Shown here: positions 6,922 through 41,646 of the stretch, piece by piece | How the letters are laid out: each line of letters starts with the position of its first letter | Position numbering within the stretch: the first letter of the stretch is position 1 | NCBI GenBank assembly: GCA_945882415.1 | Contig: CAMCWC010000007.1 | Span: forward strand, 1 to 64,000 | Direction of reading: 5' to 3' | Length of the DNA: 64,000 nt | Source of the DNA: Chthonomonas calidirosea | GTDB taxonomy: Bacteria > Armatimonadota > Fimbriimonadia > Fimbriimonadales > Fimbriimonadaceae | Program-made: the position numbers and the translations under genes | Notes under the pieces: model-generated | Databases searched by the model: none | Seen by the model: the letters and a program-made list of their open reading frames with translations, nothing else | What the model was told of the DNA's origin: nothing

Positions 6922-7337
6922 ATCTCGGGACCATTGTCACCATCGCGATCGTCGCCGCCATCCTTTTGGCCGCCGTTGCTTGGGTCTGTCAGGTCTACCA
7001 ATATCCGCGTTTCTACACCGTGCCCTTGGCCGACTTTAGGGCCTTTCACGACTACCACTGCCTTGTGGTTGGGCTCATTGTCGGGATTCCACTGCTTGCT
7101 GCGCCGATGGCTTCCGGTTACGCCGCGGTCATCACCCGCGATCCAATTGCTTGGGCCGCCTTGCTCTTCGGGTTGGTCGGACACGGGATTACGTTCTTGC
7201 ACTCTGCCGGTTGCCATGCCTCGCTCAGCGCGGCTTGGAACCGGGAAGTAATCGACCAGCTTCTCGCAAGCAATCTCTGGCGAAGCATCGCTTGGTCTCT
7301 TCAAGCTGTTCTGAGTTTTTGGCTCTTGCGACGATAA
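6918..7337 (+). CDS. Hypothetical four-helix membrane protein
   Basis: 139 residues with four predicted hydrophobic segments (IVTIAIVAAILLAAVAW; VVGLIVGIPLLAAPMA; AWAALLFGLVGHGITFL; SIAWSLQAVLSFWLL). Not recognised as a known family. It overlaps the preceding 38-codon ORF by 4 nt and precedes the MFS gene by 13 nt, so the three may be cotranscribed. Confidence 0.6.
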   Translation: MNLGTIVTIAIVAAILLAAVAWVCQVYQYPRFYTVPLADFRAFHDYHCLVVGLIVGIPLLAAPMASGYAAVITRDPIAWAALLFGLVGHGITFLHSAGCHASLSAAWNREVIDQLLASNLWRSIAWSLQAVLSFWLLRR

Positions 7338-24823: not shown

Positions 24824-24899
24824 GGGGATATAGCTCAGTTGGTAGAGCGCTGCAATCGCACTGCAGAGGTCAGGGGTTCGAATCCCCTTATCTCCACCA
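24824..24899 (+). tRNA. tRNA-Ala (anticodon CGC)
   Basis: Complete cloverleaf: acceptor GGGGATA/TATCTCC, D arm GCTC/GAGC, anticodon arm CTGCA-ATCGCAC-TGCAG giving CGC, T arm AGGGG-TTCGAAT-CCCCT, and encoded CCA at 24897-24899. Its 3' 32 bases are repeated with three mismatches at 28591-28622. Confidence 0.95.
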
Positions 24900-24939
24900 A
24901 AACAAAGAATGGCTCATGTTTCCATGAGACAATCTTAGT

Positions 24940-25575
24940 ATGCGGCATAGCGGAAAGATGAATTCCTATGGGTTCGTACCGCCGTTGGCAACCGAGTATG
25001 AGTCAGCATACGTCACCGGGGAAGGGCAAACCCCAATCTGCGCCGGTATTTTAATCGAGAAATTTGTTCCATCCTTCCGCTTCAATCCTCTGCAACTTGA
25101 CGTAGAACAACAAATGACAGTTATTATTCACCACGTACTTCCCAAGTACCAGTCAAGCGGACTTCAGACAAACTTCGATCCCGCCCAATATATCCCAGCA
25201 ATTCTGGCTTATATTGAAAGGTGGAAACCGTTGACGGTCATAGTTACTCAAGAAGACTCTAACGATGAACTGTATGAAGAATTGCGGACAAAGGCTACAT
25301 TTACGGCCATTTGGAGGTGGCATCACTTTTTTGATTCTGTTCGTGATAATGAGATCGCAGACCAGTTAGGGGTATACCAAAGCGACTTAGTCGAAACCTA
25401 TGTGAATAACACGAGGTTTATGAGTGTCATTCAACCTTGGATGAAAAACTTAGAGAAGGAGAACGTTATTGTGCTCGGCGGTTTCCGGACGGAATGTGTT
25501 GAAGGACTGACTGATGGCCTATGTCAGTTAGAAGTCGACTATCACTGCCATTCAGATTTGATGTATCCGCGCTAA
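24940..25575 (+). CDS. Unknown 211-aa protein in the island
   Basis: Not recognised. A predicted mixed alpha/beta protein; the segment KPLTVIVTQEDSNDE and the C-terminal NVIVLGGFRTECVEG look like Rossmann-like strands, and the latter faintly recalls cysteine hydrolases of the isochorismatase type, which I do not claim. Start ATG 24940 or 24958; neither has a good ribosome site. Convergent with the Mrr-STAND gene with 21 bp between stops. Confidence 0.55.
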   Translation: MRHSGKMNSYGFVPPLATEYESAYVTGEGQTPICAGILIEKFVPSFRFNPLQLDVEQQMTVIIHHVLPKYQSSGLQTNFDPAQYIPAILAYIERWKPLTVIVTQEDSNDELYEELRTKATFTAIWRWHHFFDSVRDNEIADQLGVYQSDLVETYVNNTRFMSVIQPWMKNLEKENVIVLGGFRTECVEGLTDGLCQLEVDYHCHSDLMYPR

Positions 25576-25596
25576 AACATTCTGGCTAGAGAATAT

Positions 25597-28002
25597 CTAG
25601 AGACCCGCAAACATTTCTTCCACAAGGTCCACCGATTCTGAGAATGGTGGAAATCTATCCAGATCTTGACCGTCCTCCTCTGCTCTAAACAATGCCTCAT
25701 ATTTTTCTTCCTCTTGCCAGAGCTCAAGGTCGGCATCAAACCTTCCAATCTCCTTGTCGAGAGCATCACATTGCTTCGCAAGGGTCGGAAACTGAATCCG
25801 AATAAGATTACTCATCTCGCGAATATAATAGAAACTCTCAAAATCCTCTGACGGCCTGAACTTTTGGAATCCGCGCACGAGCAGTTTTGTGCCGATTCTG
25901 GCTAACTTCTGGCTGAAAGCTGAGTTTGTCATTTGGTCCTCAAAGCACTCTGGGTGATCAAGAACTATCTGTCGAAGTTCTAACCATTCGTTGAACTTTG
26001 ACACAAAGGATGATCTCCTTGAAGAACCTTTGTACCACCACACCATGCTGTCCCAGAGTTCACTTCGACGCTCACGAAATACCTCTCCAGCCGGAAACAC
26101 TGTGGGATTTTCTATGCGAATTGCCAACTGTACGTAGGTAAATACCTCGAGGTTTGTAGGCTGTGGCTCGTAATAGTCGCGATTGGACGTTAGAGCTTCC
26201 GAAGCCAACTCCAAAATCTGCCTTACGAATTGCATGAATCCTGGAAGAAAATTCCCCTTCGCATCGTAAAGTTGCACGATGCTGTTGAGGACCGAAGACC
26301 ACTCTCTAGTTCTTGTGTTGGTTGATCGTTCCTTTAGGTTTTCCAGAATGGGTTCGTAGTCCTCCGCACTTAAAAGCAATGGAGCAAATTTATCTCCAGC
26401 CGCGCCGCCCCCAATTGCGAACGCAAGTCCAATTCCTCGAAATCCGCAATAACGGAGAAATTTATGACGAAGTCCTTTCTGATCCGCAAGATATGAAATT
26501 AAGAGGTCGCGCCACGTCGGATGAGCCAATTCGTAAGTGGCTTCGCTCGGCGTTCGGTACGGCGACAATCGTAAGTAGTGGTCCTCCAACGCCTCCCAGA
26601 TTCTGGCTTTTGACGGCCGGTTTTCCGGCGGACCAAGCTTCTCGAACAGGTTCGACAGTTCATCAAATGAGAACCCAAAATCAAAATCTAAGGTTGAGAT
26701 CAAAAAGAGCCGATAGGCTTCATCTAGCTGCTCGAATGACTTTCTCATCTGTTCAGTTGGATTACTTATGAATCGTGCCACTAAGTCCCGTCCAACAGTT
26801 TGGGCGTCGGACGCTTCCTCTCTAACAGAGGAAAGTGCGTCAATGAATCGTTTGACCCTAAGCGGCGTGAAGTTATCACTCCAAATGACACGATGTGCGC
26901 TAGCTTTCATTACTTCCTTTTGGAACGTAGTGAGAGCCTTGTCTTTGGCATGATTGAGAACCATCCGGGAACGAACGGTTTCATTTAATTGAGAAATGTC
27001 GACAACGACTTCACCTGTCTTCGGAAAGCTACCGACTTGAGGTTGCAGATGTATCTGGTTTAAAGCAATCTTTAGGGGTGCGGTACGGGAAGTGAAGATA
27101 ATTTGCTTTGTTGGTCGTAGAAGTCCGAAGACTAGATGTAAGTCCCTCGACCAGGCCTCTCCGTAGTCCGGAACGTAGGCGTTTGAGCCAAAAAAGTCAT
27201 CGGCAAGGAATATCGTAGAGGTCTCGTCGGCCAGCATCGTGAAAAAGGCATCGTCGGGTTTTCTAACGTGAACGACTTCATATCCCTGAGAAGCCCGTTC
27301 TAACGCCAACACATAGCTCATTGCAGTCTTACCAGCTTCTGGAGGGCCAGAAAGTACAACGTAGTTTGACCTATCCAATGCAATATTCGCTTTGTGATAT
27401 GCTTCTGTTTCGACAAACACTTTGGCGATGTCTTGAGCACTCTCAAGAAGCACTTTTGATCGAACTTCGACACCTTTGAGAAGAGAGGAACCGAGAAGAA
27501 CTTCAAGATCTTCAAGTCCCATTATCCGAGGAAAGGCCTTCCTAATGGCTGGGTATTTTCGAAGCCTGGTGACAATATCTAGACCGCCCCAAACTTCGAC
27601 TTTCGCACTTGGATAGAGCGACTTAATCCTTTGTGCGATTTCTTCTCTTTGAGTTGGCTGTATTGGAACATTAGTCATCAAAACATATGAACCCGGAGCT
27701 TTCCCGTCTTTGGCGGTTCGAGTTTCGATCCTGATGATCTCTCGGTCCACTGCACTTCTCAGAGCCGCGGCGGGCCTTGCTTGAGCTGCACTGGCATTGC
27801 TAACAAACTTTGCCTGAAATACTACTGGTCCGGGAAGAAAGTCTTGCTCGAGTTTTAGGTCGGACTCACTGTAGGCATCACGTCCAAGGTCACCAGTTCC
27901 ACCCCAGGCTTCAATACCTGAACCGAACATCGCGAATAGCAGAGATTGGCAAAGATGCTCAAAGTCTGCCCAGCCAAGTCCATCAAGTCGAGCAACTTCC
28001 AT
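25597..28002 (-). CDS. Mrr-type nuclease fused to STAND NTPase (Avs-like)
   Basis: 801 aa. Residues 1-150 are a PD-(D/E)xK restriction-type nuclease: LGWADFEHLC with Glu15, GDLGRDAY with Asp42, and QAK with Lys65. From about 200 comes a P-loop NTPase: Walker A GPPEAGKT (219-226), Walker B TIFLADDF (Asp268/269), sensor IIFTSR (302-306). The remaining ~400 residues are helical, as in sensor domains of STAND proteins. The layout nuclease-STAND-sensor matches antiviral Avs-like and nSTAND3 proteins, where sensing a phage protein triggers DNA cleavage. All key catalytic residues are present, so it is likely functional. Confidence 0.8.
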   Translation of the reverse strand: MEVARLDGLGWADFEHLCQSLLFAMFGSGIEAWGGTGDLGRDAYSESDLKLEQDFLPGPVVFQAKFVSNASAAQARPAAALRSAVDREIIRIETRTAKDGKAPGSYVLMTNVPIQPTQREEIAQRIKSLYPSAKVEVWGGLDIVTRLRKYPAIRKAFPRIMGLEDLEVLLGSSLLKGVEVRSKVLLESAQDIAKVFVETEAYHKANIALDRSNYVVLSGPPEAGKTAMSYVLALERASQGYEVVHVRKPDDAFFTMLADETSTIFLADDFFGSNAYVPDYGEAWSRDLHLVFGLLRPTKQIIFTSRTAPLKIALNQIHLQPQVGSFPKTGEVVVDISQLNETVRSRMVLNHAKDKALTTFQKEVMKASAHRVIWSDNFTPLRVKRFIDALSSVREEASDAQTVGRDLVARFISNPTEQMRKSFEQLDEAYRLFLISTLDFDFGFSFDELSNLFEKLGPPENRPSKARIWEALEDHYLRLSPYRTPSEATYELAHPTWRDLLISYLADQKGLRHKFLRYCGFRGIGLAFAIGGGAAGDKFAPLLLSAEDYEPILENLKERSTNTRTREWSSVLNSIVQLYDAKGNFLPGFMQFVRQILELASEALTSNRDYYEPQPTNLEVFTYVQLAIRIENPTVFPAGEVFRERRSELWDSMVWWYKGSSRRSSFVSKFNEWLELRQIVLDHPECFEDQMTNSAFSQKLARIGTKLLVRGFQKFRPSEDFESFYYIREMSNLIRIQFPTLAKQCDALDKEIGRFDADLELWQEEEKYEALFRAEEDGQDLDRFPPFSESVDLVEEMFAGL

Positions 28003-28325
28003 TGATATTCGACATTACCTGCTAGGATGAGCCATTTCTTGATTTCGTGCGGTGAACAATTTGGCTGCATCTACAGTGCCACTGGAGTCTCTTCCGAACA
28101 TGGGTTTTGTTCGAGATTCCCAGTGCCAAAAATTATTACTCCAAGCTGCTTAAAACATCTTCTGAGACTCCAGTCGGCAGGTTCGAGGCGTCCGGGAATC
28201 CGGCTACATTACAACTCTTCTGCTGTTTAATGATAGAAGCATTTTTATTAATATCTTCGAATTTCCCAAACGCTCGAAGGAAGCCATGTTGCGAAACCGG
28301 CATTGTAGTCTCCACCAAACACCAC

Positions 28326-28568
28326 ATGTGGTTCGTATATATTTTGCGGTGGGAGAGAAACGGTCGTGACTACGTTGGTAGCACCAACAACATGATTCGT
28401 CGTCTCCGAGAGCCCAACTCCGGGCACAATCCATCTACTAGGGGGGAAGGAGCCGTGGGTTTTGGCCGACTCCGAAAGCAAGGAACGAGGCTGAGGCACG
28501 CCAGAGAGAACATGAATCGAGGGCCTGGATGTCTCGAAACCTGATCGAGAAGCAAATGTCGAGGTAGA
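28326..28568 (+). pseudogene. GIY-YIG endonuclease pseudogene
   Basis: Begins MWFVYILRWERNGRDYVGST, a GIY-YIG domain (VYIL and YVGS), then NNMIRRLREPNSGHNPSTRG. The expected continuation appears in other frames: EPWVLADSESKERG and then EAEARQREHESRAWMSRNLI ending in a TAG at 28566-28568. At least two frameshifts break the gene. The final codons run directly into a tRNA-like 3' half. The stretch 28003-28325 upstream holds no supported gene. Confidence 0.75.
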
Positions 28569-28622
28569 GCGCCCCGATTGCCATCGGGAAGGTCAGGGGG
28601 GCGAATCCCCTTATCACCACCA
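28563..28622 (+). pseudogene. Degenerate tRNA 3' half with CCA end
   Basis: GGTAGAGC (D-stem end), an anticodon-like arm CCCGA-TTGCCA-TCGGG (6-nt loop), then GGTCAGGGGGGCGAATCCCC and TATCACCACCA. It has a T arm and CCA end but lacks the 5' acceptor and D-arm sequence, which are replaced by the GIY-YIG gene. The final 32 bases match the tRNA-Ala end at 24868-24899 with three differences. It cannot give a mature tRNA. Confidence 0.7.
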
Positions 28623-28775
28623 CTTCTCAGTTGCCTGGTTTTTGAGAGTTTTGGCATCCAGGAATCGCGACCAGACTCTCAGCCTTGAGTCCCTTAAATC
28701 TCGAAGTCACACCCGCGAAGCAGTACCATTTTCATTGGCGATTCTTCGCCCGCTATTCATCAGTATAATCCGCGC

Positions 28776-32810: not shown

Positions 32811-32846
32811 ATTTATGTTTTCTCCCTTAGGGGCGAAAACATAAAT
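32811..32846. promoter_or_regulatory. Perfect 12-bp inverted repeat upstream of the TIR gene
   Basis: ATTTATGTTTTC (32811-32822) and GAAAACATAAAT (32835-32846) with a 12-nt centre that itself pairs (TCCC/GGGG). AT-rich arms in GC-rich surroundings. Could be an operator or an element end; the 32716-33020 gap holds no gene. Confidence 0.45.
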
Positions 32847-33020
32847 TTTGGGTTTTGCAGGCTGATCGGCCCCATCTATAGTGCGCGGAGACGGGGAAAA
32901 GTCAACCTGGATTTTGGGGGTTTGGCGGTGCGTGGCGGAAGAAATCGATTTCGGAGTCGATTTTAGCAGGCAAAGGACTCGGGCGGAACTTCTTTGCTAT
33001 ATCATCTAGCTGACCATCCC

Positions 33021-35426
33021 ATGAGCACGAGACGCTTCCGCATCGCCTTCTCCTTTGCCAGCGAAATTAGAGATTTCGTCGAAGAGACCGCAGGCATTCT
33101 TGCGGATCGGTTCGGTCAGAAAGCCATTCTTTACGATAAGTACCATGAGGCGGAGTTCGCGGTCTTTAACCTAGGAATCAAATTGCCGAAGCTCTACGGC
33201 GAGCAATCCGACCTAATCGTTCCCGTCCTTTGCCCAAAGTACGACAAGAAGCGGTGGACCGGGTGGGAATGGGTCCACATCTATGGTCTTCTCACCGGAG
33301 ATGACGGCCATCGGGTTATGCCTAGTCGGTTCGACTTCGCAAACGTCGAGGGCTTGAGCCTGGCCTCGGGATTCATCGAACTCGACGACAAAACACCGCA
33401 GCAGTTTGCGGCCCTCATCCTCGAACGCCTCGCTCTCAACGACGGCCATCCCAAAGACCACTACACCAATCCCGTTGTAGTAACCACTGCAACCCTAAAG
33501 ACTTCCATCCCGCACAACCTCCCCGCGCTGCAGCCTTTCTTTGGCCGCGAGGAGGAGCTGAGGAAAATCGCCGACGCCCTTGACCCGGATTCCCGCACTT
33601 GGGGGGCGTTGATTGATGGGCCGGGTGGGATGGGCAAGACCTCGCTTGCCGTCCGCGCTGCCTACAATGCTTCACCGGAGTTCTTCCATCGCATCGTCTT
33701 CATCTCTCTCAAAACCCGAGAGCTGGACGACGACGGAGTACGCGACCTTAGCGGCTTTCTCATTACTGGTCTCTCAGAGTTGTTCGGTGAACTTGCCCGC
33801 GAACTCGAACGGGACGAAATCGTAAAGGCCGCAGAAGATGAGCGCCCGCGCCTGCTGCTCGACGCCCTGCGCGGCACGCAGACCTTGCTGATCCTCGACA
33901 ATCTCGAAAGCCTGCTGAAGCGAGAGCGCGATACCGTTTTCACCTTTGTCAAAAAACTGCCTTCCGGCTGCAAGGCCATCCTTACAAGCCGGGGACGCAT
34001 TGGCTCGGGGGCGGAAGAACTCATCCTCGACAAGCTCAGCGAGGATGCCGCTCTGGAAACCCTCGCCGAGCTCGCCACCCACAATCCGCTCCTCGCGCAA
34101 ACCAGCGAGGCCGAGCGCATGGTCCTCTACCGCGAGACAGGCGGCAAGCCGTTGCTGCTGCGCTGGACCGCCGGCCAACTCGGCCGCGGCCACTGCCTCA
34201 CCTTCACCGATGCGCTAGATTTCATCCGCTCTTGCCCTAAAGATAATGACCCGCTGGAGTTTATCTTCGGCGATCTCGTCGAGGACTTCGAAGACGACGA
34301 AACAATAGCCCTTTGCGCGCTTACTTACTTCACCCTCCCGGCGGAGGTGAAACACGTCGCCGCCATCGCCGGGCTAACAGAGCCAGACACTGACCTTGCC
34401 GTTCGCAAGCTCACCGTCCGCTCCCTCGCCATCCCATCTGATGAGTTGAAGACCTTCACCCTTATCCCGATGGTTGCGGACTTCTTACGGAAGAAGAAGC
34501 CCGAAGTGGTCGCAGAAACCGGCGACCGGCTGGAGAAGCGAGCTTGCGCTCTCATCGTCGAGAACGGCTTCAACAAGTACGACCGCTTCCCCGCCCTCGA
34601 AGCTGCCTGGCCAGGCATCGCTCCTGCATTTGCGCTCTTCCTCGCGGGGGATAATGCGCGCCTCCAGCAAGTATGCGACGCTCTCTCGTCCTTCATGGAA
34701 TTTCAAGGACGCTGGGATGAGTGGCTTGCGCTCTGCGAGAAAGCCGAAGCCAAGGCAGTTGCCGCCAACGATCAGAAGAATGCCGGCTGGCGTGCGTATT
34801 ACGCGGGCTATATTCACCAACTGCGACAGCAGGCTGATGCCGTGCTCTCATGTGCCGCCCGCGCTACGGAGTATTGGGAACGGGCGAGGGCGGGCACTCG
34901 CGAGCGTGCCATCGCCATACGGTTGCGAGGCACCGGCCATCTCCGGAAGAAGGATTACCCCGCTGCCATCGCCGCCTTCCGCGACTCGCTCGAACTGGAT
35001 CGTAGCCTCGCCGCCGACAGTGTGGACACGGCTACTGGCCTTAATGATCTCGGCACGGCTGAGCAGTTATCTGGTGATCTCGATCTGGCAGAGGAGCACT
35101 ATCGCGAAGCTCTACGCGTTGCACGTACCATTGAGTACGCCGAGGGCGTGGCTACCTATACCGGCAATTTGGCTGGTCTTGCCCTTCACCGGGAGAACTG
35201 GCCAGCTGCGGAGACTCTGGCGCGCCGGGCGCTTGCATTGTCCGAAGAGATCTCCCGTCAGCAACTGATCGCAAGCAACAGCAGCCGTCTGGCTTTCGCC
35301 CTGAAGCAACAGGGCAGGGCCAACGAGGCCGTGCCCTACGCCGAGCGAGCGGTGGAAATTTTCACCCGTCTCGGCCACCCCGATCTTGCGATAGCCCAAG
35401 CCGTTCTCACTGAGTGTGATGGCTGA
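33021..35426 (+). CDS. TIR / NB-ARC / TPR protein (bacterial NLR-like)
   Basis: 801 aa. Residues 1-130 form a TIR- or SEFIR-like domain (RRFRIAFSFASEIRDFV, then RWTGWEWVHI with Glu83 in the place of the TIR catalytic glutamate). NB-ARC follows: FFGREEEL, Walker A DGPGGMGKTS (199-208), Walker B TLLILDN (288-294), AILTSR, and GGKPLLL. The last ~250 residues are TPR-like helices. In characterised bacterial TIR-STAND proteins, infection triggers NAD+ depletion; that role is inferred. Start ATG 33021. Codon use (many CGC, CTC) differs from neighbours, suggesting transfer. Confidence 0.82.
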   Translation: MSTRRFRIAFSFASEIRDFVEETAGILADRFGQKAILYDKYHEAEFAVFNLGIKLPKLYGEQSDLIVPVLCPKYDKKRWTGWEWVHIYGLLTGDDGHRVMPSRFDFANVEGLSLASGFIELDDKTPQQFAALILERLALNDGHPKDHYTNPVVVTTATLKTSIPHNLPALQPFFGREEELRKIADALDPDSRTWGALIDGPGGMGKTSLAVRAAYNASPEFFHRIVFISLKTRELDDDGVRDLSGFLITGLSELFGELARELERDEIVKAAEDERPRLLLDALRGTQTLLILDNLESLLKRERDTVFTFVKKLPSGCKAILTSRGRIGSGAEELILDKLSEDAALETLAELATHNPLLAQTSEAERMVLYRETGGKPLLLRWTAGQLGRGHCLTFTDALDFIRSCPKDNDPLEFIFGDLVEDFEDDETIALCALTYFTLPAEVKHVAAIAGLTEPDTDLAVRKLTVRSLAIPSDELKTFTLIPMVADFLRKKKPEVVAETGDRLEKRACALIVENGFNKYDRFPALEAAWPGIAPAFALFLAGDNARLQQVCDALSSFMEFQGRWDEWLALCEKAEAKAVAANDQKNAGWRAYYAGYIHQLRQQADAVLSCAARATEYWERARAGTRERAIAIRLRGTGHLRKKDYPAAIAAFRDSLELDRSLAADSVDTATGLNDLGTAEQLSGDLDLAEEHYREALRVARTIEYAEGVATYTGNLAGLALHRENWPAAETLARRALALSEEISRQQLIASNSSRLAFALKQQGRANEAVPYAERAVEIFTRLGHPDLAIAQAVLTECDG

Positions 35427-35659
35427 TAGCCCCAGCCACCTTACAATCATTTGGCGAGTTCAAGCGGCTCGCCTTAGAAGAACTGCGCGCTTTGCTGATG
35501 CGGCTGACCGGTTACAGTTTGGGGTGGGAGCTGGCGTTCGGCAGTTGGGCGATGCTCCCGCCGGAACGAATCAACGCCTGCGGAGCAGTGCTTCAAGATT
35601 CTCTCACCGACTCCAAGGACCACTACAACCACAGCGGCCCTACCGATTCCTCTGACTAA
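35423..35659 (+). CDS. 78-codon ORF coupled to the TIR gene through a CTG start
   Basis: In the frame that begins at CTG 35423, whose last two bases are part of the TIR stop (CTGA), runs a coding-like sequence: FGEFKRLALEELRALLMRLT, then GWELAFGSWAMLPPERINAC and a hydrophilic end. No ATG, GTG or TTG is available before the TTG/ATG near residue 30. The helical composition and end-to-start overlap suggest a real small partner, either with a non-canonical start or as a product of frameshifting. No homologue recognised. Confidence 0.4.
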   Translation: MIAPATLQSFGEFKRLALEELRALLMRLTGYSLGWELAFGSWAMLPPERINACGAVLQDSLTDSKDHYNHSGPTDSSD

Positions 35660-35777
35660 AGTGTTCAAGGGCATCCCGAGAAGGACTAGCAACCAATCAG
35701 GAGCCGGAAACTCTCACACTCTTGGCTGGTCAAGAAATGGGGACTGGCCACTGTCAAGTTCGGATCGAACAGATTTC

Positions 35778-36128
35778 TTAGAGGATCGCCCGATCGCACT
35801 TGGCCCGCTTCAGGTAGCGATCCGATGACGCCTCGTTAAAGCCCTCCTCAATCCAGCCGAACATCTGCTTCGGAACGGTAAGACGCTTGAGCACGTCCGA
35901 AAATGCTTCCGTGATCTTCGCTTTTGAAATGTCCCAGCGGCCACTCTCTTCCCTTCGCTCGCCCATGCAGTGGTGGTAAACGCATTTGCTTTTCCTTAGC
36001 ACGCCTTTCATCACCTTGCCGCATTGACAGCGAGGCTTGCCCAAGTTGGTGAACTCCATGCTTCCGTAGCCGGTGTTGTTTTGGTAACACAATCTATTCT
36101 CAGCTATACCGCTTACGCCAAAGAAGCG
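35778..36128 (-). pseudogene. Serine recombinase C-terminal remnant
   Basis: Reads PRCQCGKVMKGVLRKSKCVYHHC, the zinc-ribbon of large serine recombinases (CxCG...KGxYVYYxC), followed by ITEAFSDVLKRLTVPKQMFG and a helical tail as in that family. The catalytic N-terminal domain is missing and the frame closes upstream at 36129. A dead mobile-element remnant marking this accessory region. Confidence 0.65.
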
Positions 36129-36142
36129 CTATTATTAGAGTA

Positions 36143-37597
36143 ATGTCCACAGCAGACCACCTAATAATGCTCCGAGAGGGGCAAATGGTTCAAGGAAGTA
36201 GCCAACAGGAGACCCGGCGGATTCTGAAGCTGGCCGCTGCCGATTCCAAGAAGCATCTTGCTATTTTCTTTCATGGTGGCCTGGTGAGCGAAAAGGGTGG
36301 GCTTGAGACGATGGAGAAGCTAATCGGCCCGTACTCGGACAATAGCTATCCGCTCTTTTTCATCTGGCACAGCGGCTGGAACGAAGTTTTGATCAACGCT
36401 TTGCCTAAGATCGTCGACAACGCTGTCGGGTATCAGCAGTTGATGCAGTACCTCAAGCAGATGGTTGCAAAAAAGCTTGGTGCCGAACTTGGAACTAAAA
36501 GCCTTGAGGACCGCATGCCACCCCTCGCTATCGCGCTCGAGGTGGTAGCTGCAGCAGATTCCGCCGGACAGAAACCGCAAACGAAGCTTAATGCGGAAGA
36601 CGAAAGGGAGTTTGTTGATGCCCTCGCCGGCGACGCCAAGTTGCAACAGCTTTTTAATGCGCCAGTGCAGTATGACGGAAATCGCGGAATTGCCGAAACG
36701 GTTCGGACGACTGACCCGTTTATGGATCCGCAATTGCTGAGCCGTGCTTCGACCACCGAAGAGGAAGAAGGTTTGAAGAGTTTTGGACCCGTTCAGTTCC
36801 TTTCCCCGGCCTTCCTGGGTCAGGCGGTTAAGGTTTTACGAAAGATTTTCATTCGGTTCGCAACCGGACGGGATCACGGAATACATCTCACGATATCGGA
36901 GGAAATCCTTCGCGCCTTTTACGTCGGCGCGATCGGCAAGGGGCTTTGGGACCAGATGAAGGAGGAAACACAGGCCGCCTTCGGCGACGATCCAGCGACA
37001 TTCGGCGGGACGGCCCTGCTTCAAGAGATCAAAGCCCTTGGTCCGGAGACGTTCGACAGGATTACTCTGCTTGGCCACAGCGCTGGTTCGATCTATATCT
37101 TCAGGCTGCTCGAGGCAGCCCATAGGCAGATGCCCGGGGCTAAGTTCGACGTCGTCTTCTTCGCCCCCGCGGCAACTTGCGATCTAGCGGCACAGCAGTT
37201 CGAACGTCGCCCCGATCAGATTAACCGGATTCGGACCTTTACGATGAAGGATCCGCTGGAACAGGCGAACAGCATCTTCGACAACCTCGCGGACGTGTTG
37301 CGTCCGATCTACCCATCTTCCCTGCTTTATGCGATCTCGGGTCTTCTCGAGGAAATGGCTGACGAGCCGATTCTCGGCATGGCCCGCTTTATTGAATCGT
37401 CCAGGTTCCGGAACCTCGATTCAAGCGTTGAACTGTGTGCGAAGCCTTTGGTGGACGGAAACTGCTCGGTCTTCTCAAAAACTGCCCCCCAAAGTCCCGC
37501 AGGCCGAGGGTCACAGGCCAGCACGCACGGAGGTTTCCCAACGGAACCCGAGACCCTCGACAGCACGAAGGATCTGCTCGCCGGGAACTGGGGATGA
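36143..37597 (+). CDS. Alpha/beta hydrolase, first gene of caspase operon
   Basis: 484 aa. HLAIFFHGGLVSEKGG (40-53) resembles a lipase oxyanion-hole loop and LLGHSAGSIY (309-318) carries the nucleophile elbow GHSAG with Ser313; the middle 130-290 is a large helical insert. The last ~80 residues are low-complexity. Lipase- or esterase-like, cytosolic (no signal). Its stop overlaps the caspase ATG (ATGA), so both proteins are produced in fixed ratio. The role is unknown; a toxic lipase effector or a processed partner of the caspase is inference. Confidence 0.72.
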   Translation: MSTADHLIMLREGQMVQGSSQQETRRILKLAAADSKKHLAIFFHGGLVSEKGGLETMEKLIGPYSDNSYPLFFIWHSGWNEVLINALPKIVDNAVGYQQLMQYLKQMVAKKLGAELGTKSLEDRMPPLAIALEVVAAADSAGQKPQTKLNAEDEREFVDALAGDAKLQQLFNAPVQYDGNRGIAETVRTTDPFMDPQLLSRASTTEEEEGLKSFGPVQFLSPAFLGQAVKVLRKIFIRFATGRDHGIHLTISEEILRAFYVGAIGKGLWDQMKEETQAAFGDDPATFGGTALLQEIKALGPETFDRITLLGHSAGSIYIFRLLEAAHRQMPGAKFDVVFFAPAATCDLAAQQFERRPDQINRIRTFTMKDPLEQANSIFDNLADVLRPIYPSSLLYAISGLLEEMADEPILGMARFIESSRFRNLDSSVELCAKPLVDGNCSVFSKTAPQSPAGRGSQASTHGGFPTEPETLDSTKDLLAGNWG

Positions 37598-38598
37598 GTT
37601 CACGCGCCCTCATCATCTCCGCCCAAGAGTACAAAACGTTTCCGGCTCTCAAGGGTCCTGACGCTGATGCGACCGCCTTCGAGAAATGGCTAAAAAATGC
37701 AGATCCGAGTTGCCAGATTGAGATTGTTAAGGGGCAGGCCGGAAACGCGGGAACGCCTACATTTAGCGAGGTGAATCTTGCAATCTCACGATGGGCAGCA
37801 GAAAAGCGGGCAAACAGGGGGCGGCCTATCGCGAAGAGGGGATACATCTATTACAGCGGTCACGGCATTGCACCCGCGCCCGACGACGCCCAGATGGTAA
37901 CCGCAGAAGCCAATCACGAAGCGCTCTTTGGCGTGTCGGGAAGAGCAATCGCAAATTACCTGGAGAAAGGAGGCTTTTTCGAGGAATTGGTGCTGATAAT
38001 GGACTGTTGCCGGGACGATTCACCCTCCGCGCCGATCCCTTTCCTCCTCACTCCGATTGACGATCCGTTGCCAAAAGGCACCAAGCGCTTTATGGCGTTC
38101 GCTACTTCGTTTCCGCTGAAAAGCAAGGAGCAGAAAGTTCCACCAAGGAATGACGTTAGGGGACTCTTCACCGTCGCGTTAATCGAGGGTCTAGAAGGAA
38201 AGGCCCCTCGGTCGAGCAGCGGGGCGATCACCGGCAAATCAATTAACGACTATGTTCTGAACCGACTGCCCGACCTAATCGCTTCGAACCCGGTCAATGG
38301 ATTGAACGCTCGGGCGCAGTCGCCAAAATTCGAACCAGCCGATAGCGACATGGCCTTTGGAACAACCGCAGTCCCTGGGCAAAAGATCGTCATCACTTTC
38401 CGCAACGATCAAGTCGGTCACCGAATTCGCGTGCTCTTCGGCGCAAACAGAGTCGTAGCGGAAACGACAGTCTTGGGCGCCACTTGGGAGGTTCCCCTTG
38501 ACTCCGGAATATACTTCGTGATCGACGTCGACTCGACGGACTTAGCTGACCAAAAGCCGGCACGCCTAGTGGGTGAGGATACTCATGTCATCTTCTGA
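37594..38598 (+). CDS. Caspase-like (C14) protease
   Basis: 334 aa beginning MSSRALIISAQEYKTFPALK with a p20-like fold. Catalytic dyad: His90 in YIYYSGHGIA and Cys139 (or 138) in LIMDCCRDD. About residue 280 onward is a separate beta-rich domain (KIVITFRNDQVGHRIRVLF ... GIYFVIDVDS). Bacterial caspases often act as death effectors in defence, cleaving target proteins after activation by a sensor; here the neighbours are a hydrolase and an LRR protein. Overlaps both neighbours, indicating one operon. Confidence 0.82.
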   Translation: MSSRALIISAQEYKTFPALKGPDADATAFEKWLKNADPSCQIEIVKGQAGNAGTPTFSEVNLAISRWAAEKRANRGRPIAKRGYIYYSGHGIAPAPDDAQMVTAEANHEALFGVSGRAIANYLEKGGFFEELVLIMDCCRDDSPSAPIPFLLTPIDDPLPKGTKRFMAFATSFPLKSKEQKVPPRNDVRGLFTVALIEGLEGKAPRSSSGAITGKSINDYVLNRLPDLIASNPVNGLNARAQSPKFEPADSDMAFGTTAVPGQKIVITFRNDQVGHRIRVLFGANRVVAETTVLGATWEVPLDSGIYFVIDVDSTDLADQKPARLVGEDTHVIF

Positions 38599-40648
38599 GG
38601 GAAAAGACTACACCCTGACCGTCGACCCTCCCAACATCATGGCGGAGGTCACAATCATTTCAGGCAACCTGGAAGCGGTAGCAAAAGGGGCGGGTTTCTG
38701 TCGTTTCCAACTCCCTGGTGGGATTTACATGGTGCGAATCCGTTCTGGGGAATCAATGATTGAGGAAGGTCCTTTGCTCCTTAATGCCGACCAGACCATC
38801 AGGCCTGATTGGAGCCCGATGACAACGGGGGACGCGCCCACCGAACGGAGCGCCAACCACCACGAGTATCAAATGGTTCCGGCGGAGCAGATATCCCGTT
38901 CGCCAATTGCTTTCGGCTCGGGAGCCGGGCTCCTTCTTTTCGTTCGTCGGAGCGAGGGCGATCAGGATTGGGAAACGCCCTCCATTTCGGTTCGAGACCG
39001 AAGAGGGAGAGAGATCGCGTCCCTTGATTCGCCTCATGCTGTAACGAACCCTCAAGCCCAATATTCGGCTTTGAGCCTGCTTCTCGATCCCGGCTACTAC
39101 AGAATCCACTCGGAAGCAGATCCGGCAACCGAAATGGGAGTTTGGCTCCCCAAACCGTCGTCCACGGAATGGCAGACGCAGGTCTTCATTACCGACTCGC
39201 CGGAAAGGCCTGGATTCGCGCTTGGGGAATGCAGCATGCTCATGAGTCCGCTCACTCTAGGCTTCGTCGCGTCGTCCCCAGAGGCCATGCTGGCAGAGCA
39301 AGCTCGGCAAGCGTTGTTGGATGGTCAAAGACGTATGCACGATGACTTCGTGAAGTCGGTGGCATGGGGTAAGGGAAACAACCCGCTGTTGGGCATCGCC
39401 GCTCTAATCATGCTGCTTCGGCAGTCGGAAAGGCAGCAAGACTCTATCGACGCGATCTTACGCAACACGACAGAGCTGTTAGGAGAAGATATGCCTGATG
39501 TCCAAGTACTCAGGGCGTTTGGCACAAATATTCCGATTAGCCAGGATCGACTGAAATTTCCGCCAATCTTTGCTGGCGTTTCAAGGCATCTGCCGGAGGC
39601 TAACGAGTCTAGAGTGGCGCTGATTGAGCGGCAGGGGCTCTTCGCGAAAGCGGCACCTTGGATGGTGCCGACTCGCCTTTGGACTGTCTGGCGGAAGAAA
39701 TTTGAAGACGATCAATCGACGGCCAACTCTATCGACTCTCGGGTCCGGGCAATGGCAAAAGAGATTGCCCGCAATCCGTCCGATGCTGGCCAGAATCTCT
39801 TTTTTGTTAACGCTTCGTCCGAGTCGACAGAAGCCGACGTAGCCTTTGCGCTAGCAAATACTCCAGAAATCCCCCGGGATTTGCGCGACCTCTATAGAGA
39901 GAGTGCCGACCATTTCCGATTTCCTCAACCGACCAAAGAATCTGCTCCCATCCTTGCCGCACTAAAGGAAGATCCTGATGTTCAAGAGCTAAAGCTCGTG
40001 GGCGGGAATGTTACCGACGCAGAGCTTCGCCACCTGGAGCGATTCACAGGTTTGAAGTACCTTTGGCTCGATGACACGATGATCACCGACAATGGTCTTC
40101 AATACCTGGAAAAGCTGAAGAGTCTGACCTTCCTTTCGCTGGATAACACTAGCGTCAGCGACGCCGGGCTGATCTACTTACAGGGGTTGACGGCTTTGAG
40201 ACTTCTGAAGCTTGAAAGCACTCAAGTCACCGACGACGGACTGACCTACTTGAAGCGGATGACAGGTTTAAAATTTCTCTCGCTTGATAACACTAGAGTC
40301 ACCGACGCCGGACTAATTCACTTACGGGGGTTGACGGCTCTGAGATTGCTAAAACTTGACAACACTAGAGTCAGCGACGCCGGGCTTATCCACTTAGAGG
40401 GGTTAAAAGCATTGAGGCACCTGAAGCTTGAAAGCACTCAAGTCACCGACGCCGGACTGACCTACTTGAAGCGGATGACAGGTTTAAGAGTCCTTTCGCT
40501 TGATAACACTAGAGTCACTGACGCCGGACTAATTCACTTACAGGAGTTGACTGGCTTATTAGCACTTGGGCTAAAAAACAGTCAAGTTACTGAAGCAGGC
40601 CAGGAGGAACTCTTAAGGTCGATTTCTGGATTAAGAATTGCCCCCTAA
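38585..40648 (+). CDS. Leucine-rich-repeat protein, third gene of caspase operon
   Basis: 687 aa. N-terminal beta domain (YTLTVDPPNIMAEVTIISGN ... GGIYMVRIRSGES) resembles in pattern the C-terminal domain of the caspase; a helical middle (about 220-450) and eight 24-residue LRRs (about 475-680) of the type LxxLxLDNTxVTDAGLxxLxxL follow. ATG 38585 has a TGAGGAT ribosome site and is preferred to GTG 38573. LRRs commonly serve as recognition surfaces, so it may be the sensor or substrate of the caspase. Function is inferred only. Confidence 0.75.
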   Translation: MSSSEGKDYTLTVDPPNIMAEVTIISGNLEAVAKGAGFCRFQLPGGIYMVRIRSGESMIEEGPLLLNADQTIRPDWSPMTTGDAPTERSANHHEYQMVPAEQISRSPIAFGSGAGLLLFVRRSEGDQDWETPSISVRDRRGREIASLDSPHAVTNPQAQYSALSLLLDPGYYRIHSEADPATEMGVWLPKPSSTEWQTQVFITDSPERPGFALGECSMLMSPLTLGFVASSPEAMLAEQARQALLDGQRRMHDDFVKSVAWGKGNNPLLGIAALIMLLRQSERQQDSIDAILRNTTELLGEDMPDVQVLRAFGTNIPISQDRLKFPPIFAGVSRHLPEANESRVALIERQGLFAKAAPWMVPTRLWTVWRKKFEDDQSTANSIDSRVRAMAKEIARNPSDAGQNLFFVNASSESTEADVAFALANTPEIPRDLRDLYRESADHFRFPQPTKESAPILAALKEDPDVQELKLVGGNVTDAELRHLERFTGLKYLWLDDTMITDNGLQYLEKLKSLTFLSLDNTSVSDAGLIYLQGLTALRLLKLESTQVTDDGLTYLKRMTGLKFLSLDNTRVTDAGLIHLRGLTALRLLKLDNTRVSDAGLIHLEGLKALRHLKLESTQVTDAGLTYLKRMTGLRVLSLDNTRVTDAGLIHLQELTGLLALGLKNSQVTEAGQEELLRSISGLRIAP
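40124..40555 (+). repeat. 216-nt super-repeat within the LRR region
   Basis: LRR units of 72 nt recur in a period of three: 40124-40339 and 40340-40555 are two copies of a three-LRR block. The second unit of each (STQVTDxGLTYLKRMTG) and the third (DNTRVTDAGLIHL) are almost identical at DNA level, pointing to recent internal duplication. Confidence 0.7.
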
Positions 40649-40948
40649 ATCCTACTTGATCTCCGCCGGTTAGAGCGCCAGAATATGTTACGTTGTCACG
40701 GCCTAGGGGGACTGATGGGAGTACAGCGATCGTGGATAATCGTTGATTAAAGCGGCTACTATGCTCTTGATTCAACGAGTAAATGGTGTCGGTTTCGCTT
40801 CGCTTTATCAGCCTTGCAGATATAGAAGAAGGCTTCCAGTTTCACACGGACGCAGGACCAACTCTTGTGCAAGGTGGACAGCAATCCTGTTTTCCAGATA
40901 GCCAATTCTCGGTATTTGTTTGGCAAACCCAAGTTCGCCAAACGACGT
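40649..40948. other. Intergenic, nothing supported
   Basis: Between the convergent LRR and SUKH genes. Short frames are open on both strands but none has a ribosome site or a recognisable sequence. No clear terminator was seen. Confidence 0.4.
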
Positions 40949-41635
40949 CTACAGTCGGTACATCTCAGCCAGCCGCTCACGAAGCCCCGGCAACATCTTT
41001 CGGGCTCGGGACAGGATGCAAGCAAAGTAGTTTCGGACGTGGATTTGTTCGCGGGTGAAGAGGTTCACGTAGGTCTCGTCGTCTACCATGCTGCCTACGA
41101 GGTCGTAGAGGGATTCGGCTTCGTAGGGGTCGGTGGCGGTGGGGGCGGAGGACATCATCGCCGTAACAACCTCAAGCGTTGAAGCCTCGGGCGCACCGGC
41201 AAAGAGGGGGCTTGGGTCTTCTTCGTCGAAGAACTCACCAATAGCAGAGCTAGTAGCAAGCCAACCAATAAACGCCTCCAGAGACTGAGCGATCATGCGG
41301 TCGCTGCCGTCGTGGCAGTTTTGCATGACGTAGCCGGTGCCGGGGCCGCGGACGATGAGGCAGACCGGGTCGGACGAGTAGCCTTGAACCTCGAAGAACG
41401 GCCAGGGGAAATAGACGGTGTGGGCGAGGGGTTTGTATTGGACGATCCGTGTCGCCGTCTCGAGGGTCAGGATTTCCCCCGGAACGCTGGGCAGCTTCGC
41501 GCCATCGCCGCGCTCATAGAGTGCCCGCAGCGGGCCGGGGACTTCGAAGCCGACTTTCGCCGCCGTCGCGTCAAGGATCGCCAGATCGGCGGGAGGTCCG
41601 AGTTGGGGTTCTAACCGTTCAAGCGCTTCATTCAT
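40949..41635 (-). CDS. SMI1/KNR4 (SUKH) family protein
   Basis: 228 aa from ATG 41635 (MNEALERLEPQLGPPADLAI). Pattern DLAILDATAAKVGFEVPGPLRALYERGDGAK and later YSSDPVCLIVRGPGTGYV, QSLEAFIGWL matches the SUKH fold common among immunity proteins of polymorphic toxins. The longer frame to 41734 would overlap the AAC(3)-like gene. First-listed of four leftward genes at 40.9-43.7 kb. Confidence 0.7.
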   Translation of the reverse strand: MNEALERLEPQLGPPADLAILDATAAKVGFEVPGPLRALYERGDGAKLPSVPGEILTLETATRIVQYKPLAHTVYFPWPFFEVQGYSSDPVCLIVRGPGTGYVMQNCHDGSDRMIAQSLEAFIGWLATSSAIGEFFDEEDPSPLFAGAPEASTLEVVTAMMSSAPTATDPYEAESLYDLVGSMVDDETYVNLFTREQIHVRNYFACILSRARKMLPGLRERLAEMYRL

Positions 41636-41646
41636 TGACAAGACCC

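Follow-up and report, generated by a model that had tools for sequence, protein, structure and literature searches.

An Mrr-nSTAND3 protein with a divergent C-terminus on a tRNA-borne insert in Chthonomonas calidirosea: a candidate single-gene immune receptor

Mrr-STAND proteins and their described counterparts

Avs4 (AVAST type 4) is built, in order, of a nuclease, a STAND NTPase, a winged helix and a large, TPR-rich helical sensor; activation by portal (or terminase) and oligomerisation upon ligand binding are further criteria for this type. In a published Avs5 (AVAST type 5), nSTAND3 follows a SIR2 effector and precedes a helical sensor that is divergent, and the structure predicted for this protein is similar to that of a SAMD-family member (PMC12931631). 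Proteins in which Mrr_cat, SIR2 or TIR is joined to a STAND module were reported from P4-satellite hotspots (PMC9122126). Mrr-STAND proteins were thus already known from these hotspots, and PADLOC contains the PDC-S73 family, a phage-defence candidate with the Mrr-nSTAND3 architecture; no experimental test of a PDC-S73 or Mrr-nSTAND3 member was found in the literature searched.

Here, we analysed a stretch of 64,000 nucleotides of Chthonomonas calidirosea DNA (referred to as the window, to which all positions refer unless a locus is named). The initial annotation had reported an Mrr nuclease fused to a STAND NTPase at 25597–28002. The reading frame was confirmed at these coordinates, is encoded on the minus strand (which had been left unstated), is uninterrupted and specifies an intact protein of 801 aa with the following parts:

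25597–28002, minus strand: whole gene, open frame for the 801-aa Mrr-nSTAND3-sensor protein
27523–28002, minus strand: Mrr-type PD-(D/E)xK nuclease domain, residues 1–160, with E15, D42, Q63 and K65 (conserved residues; nuclease profile of relatives; Mrr_cat sub-threshold)
26944–27417, minus strand: nSTAND3 NTPase, residues 196–353, with Walker A at 219–226 and Walker B at 264–269 (Pfam PF20720, 1.9e-28; pLDDT mostly 75–94)
26479–26805, minus strand: winged-helix-like segment, residues 400–508, with an invariant HPT at 494–496
25690–26475, minus strand: putative sensor, residues 510–771, all helical in the model
25600–25626, minus strand: tail peptide, residues 793–801, ending VEEMFAGL

Relatives of this protein were encoded in approximately 173 stretches of GTDB genomes. 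Briefly, an alignment-based scan was run with two N-terminal patterns, which biases the sample towards one clade; 80 of the 173 loci were kept, and 77 full-length relatives were aligned. A contig scan with the single window protein as the query found no relative. Domain profiles (nuclease, NTPase, winged-helix and C-terminal) were cut from the relatives and then scored on the window protein, with the nuclease profile reaching 76.2 bits (1.6e-25, residues 6–170), the NTPase profile 102.9 bits and the winged-helix profile 14.4 bits (1.7e-06, hhalign probability 95%). In Pfam, nSTAND3 scored 99.6 bits relative to a curated cut-off of 27.2, and Mrr_cat scored 17.2 bits over residues 7–86, under a cut-off of 21 that several relatives passed. 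The PF20720 score and the nuclease profile together bear out the fusion of an Mrr nuclease with a STAND NTPase.

The Walker A (GPPEAGKT) and Walker B (IFLADD) motifs are intact, as the initial annotation had stated. Residues D42, Q63, K65, G224, K225, D268, D269, N350, H351 and H494-P495-T496 were invariant in the alignment with the 77 full-length relatives. The catalytic set proposed earlier (Glu15, Asp42 and Lys65) was present in full and contains two of these invariant residues, D42 and K65, but it omitted Q63, which completes a D...QxK core (Q63-x-K65). Since the position of E15 is occupied by Gln in 96% of the 77 relatives and by Glu in those sampled proteins of the second clade in which it is readable, E15 is the weakest of the three and is not diagnostic alone; Q63 is to be counted with the active site.

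The window protein has the order of nuclease and NTPase and the overall size in common with PDC-S73, whose model matched at 97.3 bits (2.6e-28) over residues 102–434 only and left the C-terminus uncovered. Relatives from both clades also matched this model. The window protein stands outside the two clades that were sampled, and it is probably a divergent member of this known, widespread candidate family. Avs4 has a nuclease, STAND NTPase and winged helix in the same order, but is 1534 aa in length, and no TPR match was obtained for the window protein. AVAST models are present in the PADLOC library, and none was among the PADLOC matches at E ≤ 1; likewise, no Avs chain in the PDB was matched by sequence. 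Among the PDB sequence matches that were obtained, haemoglobin was a chance match, the others were P-loops and coiled coils, and none was a true relative; NCBIfam and PHROGs gave no useful match. Like the window protein, Avs5 combines an nSTAND3 (PF20720) NTPase at its centre with a helical sensor at the C-terminus that is divergent; it differs in its effector, which is SIR2 rather than an Mrr nuclease. By description, the STAND proteins of P4-satellite hotspots are alike in the idea of an exchangeable effector on a STAND switch (PMC9122126).

An AlphaFold2 model of the window protein had a mean pLDDT of 72.6, with values of ~50–80 in the C-terminal helices. A Foldseek search of the PDB placed portal-bound Avs4 first (E = 2.4e-07), followed by SAMD9, Avs3, ZAR1, NOD2 and others, and the whole-chain TM-score relative to Avs4 was low (0.20). 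VIA aligned Avs4 over residues 1–528 (396 aligned, Z 12.4) in a list that, by Z, was dominated by AAA+ ATPases, many of which equalled the Z of Avs4. For L042, a canonical relative (mean pLDDT 83.7), Avs4 was again best (1.3e-09), ahead of Apaf-1; the AVAST5 filament and NLRC4 ranked lower. The earlier description of the protein as 'Avs-like' can largely be kept for its mechanism, as Avs4 was the best fold match and Avs5 also carries nSTAND3, but not for membership, given that no AVAST model or Avs chain was matched and that 801 aa compare with 1534 aa. Overall, the window protein likely works like an Avs protein, while its membership among the Avs proteins is without sequence support.

The C-terminal region and the tail peptide

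A helical C-terminus of ~400 aa, not obviously TPR, had been proposed as a possible new sensor. Its helical character was retained for residues 510–801, whereas residues 400–508 form the winged-helix segment, which is homologous to that of relatives; in agreement with the proposal, no Pfam TPR match was found in the C-terminus at E ≤ 1. Residues 510–801 scored 0.5 bits on the C-terminal profile of the relatives (hhalign probability 0.3%). In a control with nine relatives, each relative and all sequences at least 40% identical to it were withheld from the profile, and the C-termini of the nine still scored 110 to 228 bits; thus, the C-terminus of the window protein truly differs from its counterpart in the nearest nuclease-STAND clade. 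Seven second-clade proteins encoded on plasmids also scored <8 bits on this profile. When used as a query, residues 510–801 had zero matches in 291 phylum genomes, viral contigs and plasmids. What is new is that this region matches nothing in the collections searched, including the C-termini of the nearest relatives. In the AlphaFold2 model, ~290 C-terminal residues are helical (at moderate confidence), and the model suggests that these helices are paired in an alpha-solenoid-like manner; the predicted fold itself may therefore be ordinary despite the absent sequence matches, which qualifies the idea of a new sensor.

A second new feature is a short peptide at the end of the relatives, behind a variable linker. 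The pattern F-[DES]-D-[ILV] occurred within the last 40 residues of all 77 full-length relatives, with the consensus R-S-I-F-D-D-V/I-D, in which R was found in 73 of 77 and the second D in every one. Mean pairwise identity was 76% over this 8-residue tail, compared to 13% over the 30 residues before it. The tail pattern matched only two of 869 neighbouring ORFs, both of which were remnants of the gene itself. Because the scan patterns favour one clade, these statistics describe that clade. The window protein lacks both the RSIFDD[IV]D tail and the homologous C-terminal domain of this clade (alignment A4). Its VEEMFAGL end is of the other clade's type, fitting [LIV]xx[LM]Fxx[LF], a pattern also found in the tails of seven second-clade relatives; F798 was invariant in alignment A2.

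In the model of L042, pLDDT was ~33–46 in the linker and climbed to 81 at the very end of the chain, which hints at a docked tail; in the window protein, the corresponding values were 35 in the linker and ~60 in the tail. Mimicry of a beta-clamp motif or of an SSB tip was considered for the tail, and neither consensus fits. We tentatively propose, as an idea that we would sooner doubt than accept, that the family tail behind its disordered linker may serve in both of its forms as an intrinsic lock or as a tag for docking, which would bind either the folded part of the protein or a factor of the host and so keep the receptor inactive before the sensor is engaged, and that the window protein may represent a separate, third lineage with a sensor of its own.

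The insert at tRNA-Ala(CGC) and the genomic context of relatives

The gene was horizontally gained on a tRNA-borne insert, the parts of which are as follows:

24824–24899, plus strand: tRNA-Ala(CGC), the insertion site (ARAGORN and Rfam)
24867–24899, plus strand: left copy of a 33-nt direct repeat, equal to the tRNA 3' end, attL-like
24900–28622, no strand: inserted mini-island of ~3.7 kb (absent from the sister genome; composition)
24940–25575, plus strand: 211-aa ORF, convergent with the nuclease-STAND gene and the only other full-length ORF on the island
28107–28544, plus strand: putative GIY-YIG-like broken reading (VYIL...YVGSTNN), read from the translation
28590–28622, plus strand: right copy of the repeat (91%, three changes), attR-like, within a degenerate tRNA-like stretch

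In the sister genome G014, the flanking proteins are 96% identical and their genes are separated by ~250 bp that include the same tRNA. The DNA match to G014 breaks off at 24901 and starts again at 28737; thus, ~3.7 kb are present in the window but not in the sister, and are placed exactly at the tRNA end. GC content is 0.45–0.49 in the core of the island relative to ~0.56 around it. The ~95 bp to the right of the right repeat did not align with the intergenic DNA of the sister, so that the right boundary of the island may lie anywhere from 28622 to ~28720. The degenerate tRNA-like stretch (28560–28622) combines a D-arm-like GGTAGAGCGC with another anticodon-arm hairpin and the 3' end of tRNA-Ala, and was not recognised as a tRNA by Rfam. 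No integrase was seen within the 3.7-kb insert. The 211-aa ORF had one relative at 36% among the 291 phylum genomes (L118:9142-9660, minus strand) and none on plasmids.

In another species of the same genus (G011), the methyltransferase gene and tRNA-Ala(CGC) are followed by a gene for an 1840-aa DUF4011/helicase/REase protein (L123:1515-7037) that matched PDC-S37 at 1735 bits and Hhe at 655 bits. A candidate copy of the tRNA end downstream of this Hhe-like gene (position 7277 of joined L123/L129) had 5 mismatches in 20, near chance, and was discarded. Also new here is the low-GC insert at tRNA-Ala(CGC), a site that is empty in the sister and is followed by a different defence-type gene in another species; this tRNA is likely a hotspot for defence cargo, as judged from two occupied sites and one empty site, which are few.

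A second stretch, at 32925–41644, is likewise missing from the sister and can be viewed as a second immunity-like island. It holds a TIR-like/NB-ARC/TPR protein (32994–35426), a caspase-like protease (37435–38598) that overlaps an LRR protein (38573–40648), and a 484-aa ORF without an assigned identity. A strong inverted repeat at 32811–32846 (16-nt arms, 94%, 4-nt loop), ~80 bp before the sister match ends at 32925, is possibly a terminator. Elsewhere in the same genome, a second, weak nSTAND3-like match was found (G000:C8:94003-94338, 33.6 bits, above the cut-off).

The 80 kept loci came from Pseudomonadota, Actinomycetota, Bacteroidota, Acidobacteriota, Nitrospirota, Chloroflexota and others, and presence was patchy, with the protein missing from 60 relatives (19 of the same genus). 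Conjugative or mobilisable plasmids were among the carriers (37 plasmids with relatives, 17 of them conjugative), and several relatives were labelled 'restriction endonuclease' by annotators. In a quick tree of residues 1–395, in which branches were long, the window protein stood alone between two clades on a branch of 4.45. On two viral contigs, the gene was located downstream of an OLD-like AAA_15 ATPase with P2 GpU (tail) and Ogr/Delta genes nearby, in P2-like prophages; such a cargo position in a prophage is reminiscent of the P2/P4 hotspots (PMC9122126). A separate Mrr_cat nuclease gene (L033:8452-9477, 43.1 bits) was observed near an Mrr-nSTAND3 gene in a P2-like prophage. Among 101 neighbouring ORFs of relatives there were 8 LmuB, 7 AriA, 6 Old/GajA and 14 mad3 matches, which are raw counts with no background set and in which one protein can be matched by several models. 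This defence context supports the antiviral role that had been assigned to the protein. No conserved operon partner, fixed neighbour gene or antitoxin-like partner was found in the neighbourhoods of relatives.

Proposed mechanism and competing explanations

Our preferred reading, to which we assign a probability of roughly 0.7, is that the gene encodes a single-gene anti-phage immune receptor of the abortive-infection type. In the resting state, the nSTAND3 NTPase would keep the Mrr nuclease inactive, and the C-terminal helical domain (510–771) would bind a ligand made during phage infection. Binding would open the switch formed by the NTPase and winged helix, leading the protein to oligomerise, as Avs and NLR proteins do, so that nuclease domains could meet and cut DNA (that of the phage, and probably of the host too). 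We favour this reading because of the nSTAND3 and PDC-S73 matches, the invariance of catalytic and Walker residues across many phyla and the rank of Avs4 as best fold match, and also because relatives occur on plasmids and prophages with defence neighbours, presence is patchy and an Hhe/PDC-S37 gene is found at the same tRNA. Against it we counted the dominance of AAA+ ATPases by Z, the TM-score of 0.20, the moderate confidence of the C-terminal model, the literature without a tested member of the same architecture, and a sensor without a homologue, for which reason no ligand can be proposed. Terminase and portal, named in the initial annotation as the proteins sensed by antiviral STAND proteins with an N-terminal nuclease, were considered as ligands and gained no support.

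An unlikely alternative is a plain type IV-like restriction enzyme, in which Mrr would cut modified or foreign DNA directly, nSTAND3 would serve as a motor or DNA-sensing clamp and the C-terminus would bind DNA. The Mrr-type catalytic core, a P-loop resembling those of AAA+ motors among the structural matches and the 'restriction endonuclease' annotation of several relatives are all consistent with such an enzyme, but the NTPase is of the STAND type, Avs4 and NLR-type receptors led the fold search by E-value, and the C-terminus is divergent where the rest is conserved, as in ligand sensors. It is more improbable still that this is an addiction or maintenance gene serving the tRNA-borne element (by killing cells that lose it, or by blocking rival elements or plasmids), with phage defence secondary. 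Although the insert has just one full-length ORF besides this gene, and relatives of the gene reside on plasmids and in prophages, no antitoxin-like partner or conserved neighbour in an operon was seen, the other ORF is convergent and almost without relatives, and a different defence-type gene occupies the same tRNA in another species. That the gene is decaying and no longer functional on a degenerate island is very improbable, since, for all that the adjacent GIY-YIG-like fragment, the drifted right repeat, the very long branch and the missing integrase would suit it, the 801-codon frame is intact and all invariant catalytic, Walker and HPT residues are kept.

Mrr-nSTAND3 proteins span many phyla, yet the literature searched held no test of one. 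The gene described here represents a divergent lineage whose sensor has no match, is carried on a defined mobile unit for which the sister genome supplies a natural empty site, and belongs to a family with a sharply conserved tail. If the tail does act as a lock, it would be a control element to set beside the autoinhibition of Avs proteins and of NLR-type receptors in eukaryotes.
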